Shown here: positions 30,836 through 63,785 of the stretch, one piece after another
Numbering within the stretch: position 1 is the stretch's first letter
How the letters are laid out: every line of letters begins with the position of its first letter
Assembly: GCF_000720765.1 (NCBI RefSeq)
Contig: NZ_JODC01000012.1
Coordinates: forward strand, 1-64,000
Direction: 5' to 3'
DNA length: 64,000 nucleotides
From: Streptomyces sp. NRRL S-646
Lineage (GTDB): Bacteria; Actinomycetota; Actinomycetes; Streptomycetales; Streptomycetaceae
Program-made: the position numbers and the translations under genes
The notes under the pieces: generated by a model
What the model was told of the DNA's origin: nothing
The model's database searches: none
The model's input: only the letters and a program-made list of their open reading frames with translations

Positions 30836-30930
30836 GTGGCTGGTCGCTCCCCCACTCTCGGCTTCGCTCGAGCGGGGGGACCCCCATCGCGGCGGAGCCG
30901 CACATTGATACAGCCCCGCACCCCTCAAGG
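30836..30930 (-). repeat. interspersed repeat B, copy 2, interrupted by repeat C
   Basis: Repeat B boundaries (GTGGCTGGTCGC on the left, CGGCGGAGCCGCA and CAGCCCCGCACCCCT on the right) flank a block at about 30848-30889: CTCCCCCACTCTCGGC, TTCGCTCGAGC and GGGGGGACCCCCATCG. In copy 1 of B the same junction holds only about ACCCACG, so repeat C looks inserted into, or substituted within, B. Confidence 0.75.
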
Positions 30931-62022: not shown

Positions 62023-62207
62023 GGTTCCGCTCCCTCTTCGAGATCCTCGGGTTCCTCTGCCATTTCCTGACGGCACATCAGATTCGGCCGTCAAGGTACG
62101 CCCGGCGTCTTGAGGAGGGAAGAGAAGATGCGCGCCGGAGTTGTGGGGATCCGGCGCGCACGGGAGGGGGTTCGAGTGGAGGGAGTGACCGTGGGTAACC
62201 CCGAGCT

Positions 62208-63503
62208 GGTGCGCTCGCAGGACGTCCGGCACACCCCACCGCCGCAGCACCTCCGGCACGGCCACCGTGCCGTCCGCCCGCTGGTGCTGTTCCAGGAGCG
62301 CGGGCAGCAGGCGGCTGGTGGCGAGGCCCGAGGCGTTGAGGGTGTGGACATGGACCGGTCTGCCGCCGCCGACCGGGCGATGGGGGTCCCCCCGTTCGAG
62401 CGAAGCCGAGAATGGGGGAGCATGGCCCCGCGCCGCGCCTGGTAGTCGCGGGCGTTCGACACCGAGCTGACCTCGGCGTACGCACCCAGGCTCGGCAGCC
62501 AGACCTCCACGTCGTACGTCTTGGCCTGGGCGGGGCTGGTGTCCCCGGCCGCGAGTTTGGTGAAGCGGTGGTGCAGGCCGAGTCCGGCGACCAACTCCTC
62601 GGCGCGGGCCAGCAGTTCGAGCTGGGCGGCGTCCGAGTCCTCGGGGCGCGTGTACTGGAAAAGCTCGACCTTGTTGAACTGGTGGCCGCGCAGGGTGCCC
62701 CGCTCCGCGGTGCGGTGGCCGCCGCTCTCCTTGCGGTAACAGGGCGTGTAGGCGACGTACTTGAGCGGCAGCTCCCGCTCGTCGAGGGTCTCGCCGCGGT
62801 GCAGGTTGACCAGGGCGGTCTCGGCGGTGGGGAGGAGGAAGTGATCGTCCACGCGGAAGACCTCGTCGGCGAACTTCGGGAACTGTCCGGCCGTATAGCC
62901 CGCCTCGTGGGTGAGCAGGTGCGGCGGCAGCACGAACTCGTAGCCCGCCCGGCGGTGGGTGTCGAGGAAGTGGTTGAGCAGCGCCCACTCCAGGGCGGCG
63001 CCCTCGCCGCGGTAGACCCAGTAGCCGTTCCCGGCGAGGGCCGCGCCCCGCTTGTAGTCGACCAGGCCGAGGTCCTCGGCGAGCTGGACATGGTCCTTTG
63101 CGGCGAAGTCGAAGGCGGGCAGGGCGCCGGCCGTCCGTACGACCCGGTTGTTCTCCTTGCCGCCCGCGACGACGTCGTCGTCCGGGAGGTTGGGCAGGGC
63201 GTCGAGGAAGTCCTGGTGCTGCCGTGCGAGCCGGTCGAGCCCGGCCTCGGCCTCCGCCAGCCGGTCGGCCAGGGTCCCGGCCGCGGCCCGGAGCTCCTCG
63301 GCGGCCTCGCCGGCCCGTCGTCGTACGGCGATGTCCGCCGAGATGCGCCGGCGCTCGCCGCGCAGCCGCTCCACGGCCGTCCGGGCCTCGCGGAAGTCGG
63401 CGTCCAGGGCGAGGAAGGCCGGGATGTCGGCGTCCACGGCGCGCTTGCGCAGGGCGTCGCGGACGGTGTCGGGGTGCTGTCGGATGAGGGTGACGTCGAG
63501 CAT
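62208..63503 (-). pseudogene. serS: seryl-tRNA synthetase gene broken by repeat C and a frameshift
   Basis: A class II synthetase for tRNA-Ser. Frame one (ATG 63503, behind GGAG) reads cleanly for about 358 residues: the N-terminal coiled coil (to about 105), [11 protein letters not shown] (serine binding), motif 2 ([20 protein letters not shown]) and [14 protein letters not shown]. It then enters repeat C and out-of-frame sequence. Motif 3 ([20 protein letters not shown]) appears just after the repeat in another frame, then PEVLRRW. No clean C-terminus is visible. The N-terminal codons look intact, so the lesion is recent or the product is a truncated synthetase lacking motif 3. Whether another serS exists elsewhere cannot be seen. 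Confidence 0.82.
62378..62420 (-). repeat. interspersed repeat C inside serS
   Basis: On the minus strand: CTCCCCCATTCTCGGC, TTCGCTCGAAC and GGGGGGACCCCCATCGC. It matches the block inside repeat B copy 2 at about 30848-30889. It separates serS motif 2 from motif 3 where ordinary SerRS sequence has about ten residues. Confidence 0.85.
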
Positions 63504-63785
63504 GGTGCGCGCTCCGTCCGGTTCTGCCGGAGCGGCACGCGCCGCCCCGGGGATGGTCCCTCGGGGCGTGGGCGAGAGGGTGCTCGCGGTGCCACCACGC
63601 CTTCACCGCCGTACGACGGTCTCGTTCGGGCCCGGTGACGGGGGCCGGCCGGCGGGGCATTTCCTCCCCGCACTCGGGAGTGGATTCGCCTCGGGACGCG
63701 AGGCCGCCGTCACACCTGCAGGCGGCTCTCTCGGCTCGCGTCGGTCTCGGGTACTTGTCTCCGTCAGCGCGTTGCCACGAGCGTA
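63504..63785 (-). promoter_or_regulatory. T-box leader of serS, serine specifier
   Basis: Leader on the minus strand. Stem I: GACGCGAG (about 63746-63739) pairs with CTCGCGTC (63701-63694); GACAAGTACC, AGAGAG and loop AGGTGTGA match the usual stem I pieces. The specifier loop shows GAATCCACTCC with TCC at 63684-63682, a serine codon followed by A. The T-box TGGCACCGCG is at 63594-63585 within a GGCGTGG/CCACGCC antiterminator-like stem, then hairpin GCCCCG-A-GGGA/TCCCCGGGGC (63567-63544). The serS GGAG (63515-63512) sits in a hairpin GCTCCGG/CCGGACGGAGC. No T-run is seen, so translational control, as in actinobacterial T-boxes, is likely. Confidence 0.8.

Follow-up and report, generated by a model that had tools for sequence, protein, structure and literature searches.

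The 64,000-nt stretch of Streptomyces DNA analyzed here, referred to as the window, carries on its minus strand a leader of the T-box class followed by a gene for seryl-tRNA synthetase (SerRS), serS. The features of the leader and the gene are collected in Table 1. All of the T-box parts named in the original prediction (AGAGAG, GAAUCC, UGGCACCGCG and the hairpin) are present on this strand. The gene proposed as the target, serS, begins behind the leader with an AUG at 63503, and leaders with a UCC specifier go with this synthetase, here called SerRS2. New beside the original prediction are the nature and the state of the gene: this is the second serS of the genome and belongs to another lineage, and near 62420-62383 its reading frame breaks.

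A scan with the strict sigma-70 consensus gave no promoter at the leader. All of the 63 leaders compared have the hexamer TANNNT 6-14 nt upstream, a motif present in 60 of 3150 control windows farther upstream (1.9%); the 63 leaders are the 77 rows of the covariance model R1 minus 11 weak or truncated ones and three repeats. Since all 63 leaders carry this element, the RNA most likely begins at the foot of Stem I, with a predicted transcript start at about 63774.

Table 1. Positions in the 64,000-nt window of the T-box leader, its predicted helices and the serS gene.
Feature	Position	Strand	Basis or remark
-10 element TACGCT just 5' of the leader	63785..63780	-	TANNNT conservation
T-box leader, entire model match	63774..63562	-	Rfam match and R1 covariance-model match
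Stem I, long form	63762..63677	-	RF00230 alignment and covariation
AGAGAG in Stem I	63731-63726	-	Site of tRNA-elbow-binding motif
Apical GGUG in Stem I	63716-63713	-	Site of tRNA-elbow-binding motif
Specifier UCC (Ser)	63684..63682	-	Preceded by GAA at 63687-63685
Stem II	63671..63652	-	Consensus pairing and covariation
Antisequestrator H1, GCGUGG/CCACGC and GCGAG/CUCGC flanking the bulge	63600..63566	-	
T-box bulge UGGCACC inside H1	63594-63588	-	UGGCACCGCG starts at 63594
Central hairpin H2	63568..63543	-	CGC common to H2 and the 3' arm of H1
Hairpin H3 (GGGGCGGC/GCCGCUCC)	63548..63529	-	Would occupy the anti-Shine-Dalgarno
Possible Shine-Dalgarno sequestrator H4 (CGCUCCG/CGGAGCG)	63534..63510	-	
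Shine-Dalgarno GGAG, within hairpin	63515-63512	-	
serS start AUG	63503-63501	-	
Second serS (SerRS2), 470-aa ORF	63503..62091	-	Homology exits the frame at 62421; a second frame takes it up at 62382-62215
Dispersed-repeat core in the serS frame break	62410..62385	-	32 places in the genome, at most 2 mismatches

The T-box identity claimed in the original prediction is borne out. In a covariance-model search with cmscan, RF00230 matches 63776-63565 over the full model (positions 1-219) with 55.2 bits and an E-value of 6.1e-11. This score lies under the gathering score of 93, and cmscan at the gathering threshold returned no match in the whole window. At E<=10, RF00230 also matches in 10 of 14 control genomes, so that only the low E-value carries weight. 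All ten RF00230 matches at eight related loci are also below gathering, at 43-74 bits. A model built from 34 leaders, one of which is the window leader itself, scores the window leader at 200.3 bits. These 34 aligned leaders are what remained of 38 collected by a motif script (with L042-L044, L046 and L049 outside the set) after L012, L013, L034 and L041 were dropped for misplaced starts.

Across the aligned leaders, RNAalifold gives 55 consensus pairs, with paired cells at 97.8% in the alignment. Changes on both sides are found in 20 pairs; shuffles give 8.1, and none of 500 reaches the observed number, which falls to 3-5 when the pairing partners are slid. The conservation of Stems I, II and III is thus supported by covariation. 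The 111-nt expression platform is more stable than its own shuffles (z -3.80), and the whole 296-nt leader has no unusual stability against shuffles (z -1.59). Covariation, together with conservation across relatives, rules out a chance match. A separate match to PyrR201 on the plus strand inside serS, at 29.3 bits against a gathering score of 49, is taken as chance.

The genome (10.7 Mb, 163 contigs) holds a second T-box match of 42.3 bits before a start judged by eye to be ileS-like. This second T-box, and the account of ileS leaders in Seliverstov 2005 (PMC1262725), agree with the naming of ileS as the usual target in the original prediction.

The second serS gene and its relatives

The ORF matches the NCBIfam model TIGR00414 (serS) over residues 1-358 with 303.7 bits, against a cutoff of 301.65. 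The other serS of the genome, on contig C9, is 35% identical, and R1 finds no match in the 4.1 kb covered at its locus (L004). SerRS2 is closer in sequence to Clostridia-type SerRSs (50-59%) than to this other copy (35%). In a FastTree phylogeny of 112 rows, the leader-bearing SerRSs and a SerRS of Yinghuangia form one clade with support 1.0 among SerRSs of Clostridia and further bacteria; the rows were picked by similarity to SerRS2, with one housekeeping copy of this genome, a few strains present twice and a midpoint root. The Yinghuangia seranimata locus (L123) has a SerRS of the same clade and no R1 leader match.

A SerRS2 relative above 400 bits is found in 18 of 295 genomes of the genus, and the leader accompanies every one of the 16 full loci that reach 62% identity (L081-L096, the window's included). 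R1 at E<=1 found no leader at two loci of 52-56% identity (L097, L098) or at 12 loci of the 41-42% class (L099-L110). A blastn search of the same 295 genomes, the window's own included, returned 46 places at E <1e-20, which, read individually, comprise 16 serS leaders, two remnants and 28 aspS leaders spread over 27 genomes; weaker matches (E >1e-10), all of them short, are left out of this count. Across the class, R1 at E<=1e-4 matches in 26 of 394 genomes. The window's family and ten others are represented, and the lowest-scoring matches, at about 30 bits, are doubtful. These class-wide matches include the serS leaders of L058 and the window and a remnant in G067; two others precede ileS-like genes, and the remaining longer leaders precede aspS-like genes, the ileS-like and aspS-like genes being judged by eye. 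Six T-box-like leaders of other actinobacterial families (L074, L075, L077-L080) are about 80-165 nt long, carry GGUGUGGUGGCACCGCG, lie before aspS-like genes and mostly score weakly.

In the named collection, 11 of the best 80 loci are actinobacterial and 10 of these have the leader; leader-bearing names among the best 80 are S. viridochromogenes, S. cyaneochromogenes, S. alanosinicus, S. smaragdinus, S. kebangsaanensis, S. tateyamensis and Catenulispora rubra. The remaining 69 of these best 80 belong to Clostridia and further bacteria; their identity to P0001, a protein closely related to that of the window, is 50-59%. R1, run on 20 of those 69 loci, gave one match, L128 from a Bacillota MAG (41.4 bits).

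Four genomes (G040, G169, G240, G279) have a serS2 leader and an aspS leader on the same strand, separated by 2.8-3.0 kb (L035, L036, L037, L124), and each of the two T-boxes has its own specifier. In G288, a 73%-identical SerRS2 fragment covering residues 253-416 (G288:C17:52764-53252) lies 1.4 kb upstream of the aspS leader L017, and the two are probably a decayed serS-aspS pair. Leader remnants are present in G067 (L048) and G117 (L047), and the L048 leader abuts the last ~40 serS codons (residues 379-419).

The match of the window gene to P0001 (from L006) stays in a single frame up to residue 361 (62421) and continues in a different one from residue 363 (62382); the out-of-frame part is C-terminal and includes class II motif 3. 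The core of a dispersed repeat lies in the break, and the reversed-pattern control for this core gives 0 places in the genome. This core, CTCGGCTTCGCTCGA[AG]CGGGGGGACC, occurs twice in the window, at 62385-62410 and 30857-30882. No biosynthetic cluster was seen by eye around serS in the window. The gene is probably no longer functional in this genome, judging from its reading frame, and a sequencing or assembly error at the repeat may be the source of the break.

The state of the gene bears on whether the leader itself is a non-functional relic that has outlived a dead gene in this strain, an explanation whose chances fall somewhat short of even. The frame break at a dispersed repeat, with the C-terminal part in another frame, argues for it, as do the G067 remnant leader beside residues 379-419 and the frame changes or stops in other copies: among 24 leader-bearing copies the window, L089 and L121 are so affected, L089 and L121 by stops, and a tblastn-based scan of 295 genomes also flags stops in G146, G110 and G262. 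Against it, the window leader retains the specifier, the bulge and all pairs of H1-H4, the break may be an artifact of sequencing or assembly at the repeat, and 21 of the 24 copies have neither stop nor frame change in their matched segments. Within these 21, L088 and L090 differ between scans, being flagged for stops by the tblastn-based scan and not by the protein-to-locus comparison; L085 has an additional stretch within the same frame.

The expression platform

The leader region contains no terminator-like site and the Shine-Dalgarno sequence lies within a hairpin, so that control of translation is likely. The hairpin of the original prediction that can hide the serS ribosome site is recovered, with the GGAG hairpin retained in the group. 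The translational action proposed along with it is supported by this retention and by the lack of a terminator-like site; it is unproven in that the hairpin is without covariation and equilibrium folding of the window platform leaves the exposure of the Shine-Dalgarno as it was.

Four helices, H1-H4, can each form perfectly in the window, and successive helices share bases (H1/H2, H2/H3 and H3/H4). Their pairing was checked at 16 loci of the subgroup, of which 15 were scored and L122 was lost through the start-codon motif used in the scoring. H1 keeps 11 of 11 pairs in all 15 relatives, with both-side changes at three pairs in a wider set, and H3 keeps at least six of eight pairs in all 15, with two both-side changes. 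H2 keeps 10 of 10 pairs and H4 at least six of seven, each in 14 of 15 relatives, and neither shows covariation in the subgroup. When folding extends up to the anti-Shine-Dalgarno, H2 dominates without H1 and H3 dominates with H1 in 12 of 15 relatives, a count made without a shuffled control; the switch is not seen in L058, L087 and L090. The means are 0.77 for H2 and 0.20 for H3 without H1, and 0.14 and 0.85 with H1, and in the window H2 at 0.99 and H3 at 0.00 give way to H3 at 1.00 with H1.

The reading that we consider quite probable is a T-box that responds to uncharged tRNA-Ser(GGA) and, through a relay of H1-H4, governs translation of the second SerRS, its leader being homologous to actinobacterial aspS T-boxes, with a probable change of specifier from GAC to UCC, and the gene probably being non-functional in this genome. 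The specifier UCC would pair with the anticodon GGA of tRNA-Ser. If the tRNA is uncharged, its GCCA end, which is complementary to the UGGC bulge, would pair there and hold H1. H1 would then take bases of H2, leaving GGGGCGGC free to pair with the anti-Shine-Dalgarno as H3 before GGAG has been transcribed. With H3 formed, GGAG would be left open, an order of events that must be co-transcriptional. If the tRNA is charged, H2 would form first and leave the anti-Shine-Dalgarno free to mask GGAG, turning serS off.

Equilibrium folding of the window platform gives a Shine-Dalgarno exposure of 0.28 both with and without H1; the relay, if right, therefore acts during transcription. Imposing H1 on 11 subgroup platforms clearly opens the Shine-Dalgarno in L087 and L058, opens it slightly in L088 and closes it further in L082 and L084. 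H4 as drawn is scarce in free full platforms (mean 0.11, window 0.00), where other pairings mask GGAG. In a second group of serS leaders (L091-L095), the imposed antisequestrator opens the Shine-Dalgarno from 0.00-0.01 to 0.33-0.47, and the folding suggests that this group has the classical translational design.

The folding of the same platforms makes the freeing of the AUG a serious rival to the relay, though on balance an unlikely one. According to this explanation, the switch releases the start codon and not the Shine-Dalgarno; in the OFF state, GCGUGGU of the T-box arm would cover the AUG by pairing with ACCAUGC. This helix is present in the minimum free energy structure of the 111-nt platform, and with H1 the exposure of the AUG rises in 11 of 11 platforms (in the window from 0.28 to 0.73, in L058 by 0.01 only), compared with about three for the Shine-Dalgarno. 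However, CCAUGC is largely dictated by the protein start and the AUG rise may merely reflect the imposed constraint. Moreover, L087 is without part of the pairing, and the serS leaders of the second group have no such complementarity (by eye), yet their AUG exposure rises.

Transcription termination, as in Firmicutes serS leaders, is improbable as the mode of action. Firmicutes serS genes bear T-boxes (PMC2494555), a leader of Clostridium rhizosphaerae (L162) reaches 99.9 bits, above gathering, as the one found among eight non-actinobacterial SerRS loci scanned, and the GC-rich H2 could stall polymerase without a U-tract. The absence of a terminator-like site, a GGAG that a hairpin can mask across the group and the opening of the Shine-Dalgarno in L091-L095 with the antisequestrator imposed all argue against termination.

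The specifier and the origin of the leader

The host tRNA-Ser has the anticodon GGA and the 3' end ATCCTCC-G-CCA, and both the UCC specifier and the UGGC bulge are fully complementary to this tRNA with its G73 and CCA end. The specifier thus fits the downstream serS as well as the host tRNA. R1 was run on 75 loci, with the short forms L075-L080 and some duplicates left out, and gave 77 matches, comprising 28 with GAAUCC, 42 with GAAGAC, three of the ileS form, L128 with GAUCC and three unreadable ones. The non-repeated leaders are 26 with UCC and 40 with GAC. Of the 26 UCC leaders, 25 precede SerRS2, identified in 24 cases by tblastn or protein search and visually at L058; the last is a remnant. 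Wherever the frame behind a GAC leader was inspected by eye, the start is AspRS-like, and two genes behind them that were tested are for non-discriminating aspartate--tRNA(Asn) ligase. This partition, with UCC before serS and GAC before aspS, and the complementarity of the host tRNA-Ser(GGA) uphold the serine specifier of the original prediction. A specifier one base earlier, AUC, for a sensor of tRNA-Ile, has in its favor that AUC is contained in GAAUCCAC and that ileS leaders carry AUCAC at nearly the same place, but it is exceedingly improbable and is ruled out by the discriminator base (UGGC requires G73, which tRNA-Ser has, whereas bacterial tRNA-Ile has A73), by the downstream gene, which is serS, and by the GAC of the aspS leaders, which stands in the exact UCC register.

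The bulge varies among relatives. UGGU is found in several other aspS leaders and in the Catenulispora serS leader L129, and it could wobble-pair with G73. UGGA is found in three of the four aspS leaders neighboring serS2 (G169, G240, G279) and in L017. G73 is usual in tRNA-Asp, and the UGGA of the aspS leaders L017, L019, L026 and L027 would not pair with it. No tRNA genes were found near the serS-aspS pairs at L035, L036, L037, L124, L017 and L050, and a search for tRNA-Asp anticodon loops gave about equal matches in the reversed control, its pattern being too loose.

Within the genus, the leaders closest to the window leader precede aspS and are 71-76% identical to it in nucleotides over the aligned part. 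With the specifier masked, the actinobacterial serS leaders are scattered among aspS leaders in more than one place, with low support and far from L128, the only Firmicutes serS leader in this tree. In AU tests on 63 rows (25 serS, 38 aspS), the serS leaders as one clade are compatible with the data (p 0.62), as are the aspS leaders of the genus as one clade (p 0.19). The leader sequences fit a single origin of the serS leaders. The specifier change likely ran from Asp to Ser, since aspS leaders are more widespread, and the leader probably switched from GAC to UCC on coming to control a Clostridia-type SerRS. A transfer of a Firmicutes serS leader along with the gene is unsupported: among the few Firmicutes leaders compared, L162 has no R1 match and L128 is distant.

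A broader proposal has practically an even chance of being right in full. It would comprise an actinobacterial family of translational T-boxes, mostly below the Rfam cutoff, that read tRNA-Asp and then, once two specifier bases had changed, tRNA-Ser; a Clostridia-type SerRS gained by horizontal transfer that came under a resident Asp leader of altered specificity and not under a leader of its own; and one branch with an attenuator-like relay of four helices. The leaders described here would extend T-box sensing in Streptomyces-type bacteria to the tRNAs for serine and aspartate. Serine and aspartate leaders, which differ at the first two specifier bases in otherwise similar RNAs, would provide a natural test of specificity by the codon alone. 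The findings also suggest the re-use of a resident regulator on a foreign enzyme and an Rfam cutoff that misses actinobacterial T-boxes.

Comparison with known systems

The window leader is ordinary in kind, a T-box; as a variant it is marked by the combination, in Streptomyces, of serine specificity with a long Stem I and a likely translational mode of control, in a leader that was likely re-targeted. A literature search of titles and abstract openings, with the T-box database tables and most subscription papers outside its scope, found no serS or aspS T-box reported in Actinobacteria. T-boxes before serS are described for Firmicutes, and 32 T-boxes were listed in 12 of 19 genomes filed under Actinobacteria, 18 of them for Symbiobacterium (PMC2494555). 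T-box control of his genes in Corynebacterium and, in general, of various synthetases in Actinobacteria and Firmicutes is also described (PMC9413887). The T-box database, with 23,535 entries, includes a class II search of Actinobacteria, and switches of specifier codon among T-boxes have been described before (PMC7778990). The second divergent SerRS has a likeness, by description and not by sequence comparison, in the albomycin-type SerRS2 of Streptomyces (PMC9437257).

The nearest relatives of the leader are the actinobacterial aspS leaders, which are homologous along its length and differ by GAC for UCC and an AspRS downstream, the platform being compared by eye only. The Firmicutes serS T-boxes (RF00230) share the serine specifier and the serS target, with AAUCCAC and UGGC in L162, and they act by termination. 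The window leader is nearer to the actinobacterial aspS leaders than to those of Firmicutes, where R1, whose training set was exclusively actinobacterial, scores L128 at 41.4 bits and does not match L162.

Translational T-boxes are described before ileS (PMC1262725, PMC7583486, PMC10651847), and a few of them are known to have a long Stem I (PMC7583486). The shortened Stem I, a common and non-obligatory trait of class II, is absent from the window, where Stem I is long. The actinobacterial ileS translational T-boxes, with structures from Nocardia and Mycobacterium, resemble the window leader in having a bulge, an antisequestrator and a Shine-Dalgarno hairpin in place of a terminator (PMC1262725, PMC7583486, PMC10651847). 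The window leader differs from them by its serine specifier, the C in UGGN, the long Stem I with AGAGAG and GGUG, and the relay from H1 to the Shine-Dalgarno predicted in its subgroup.
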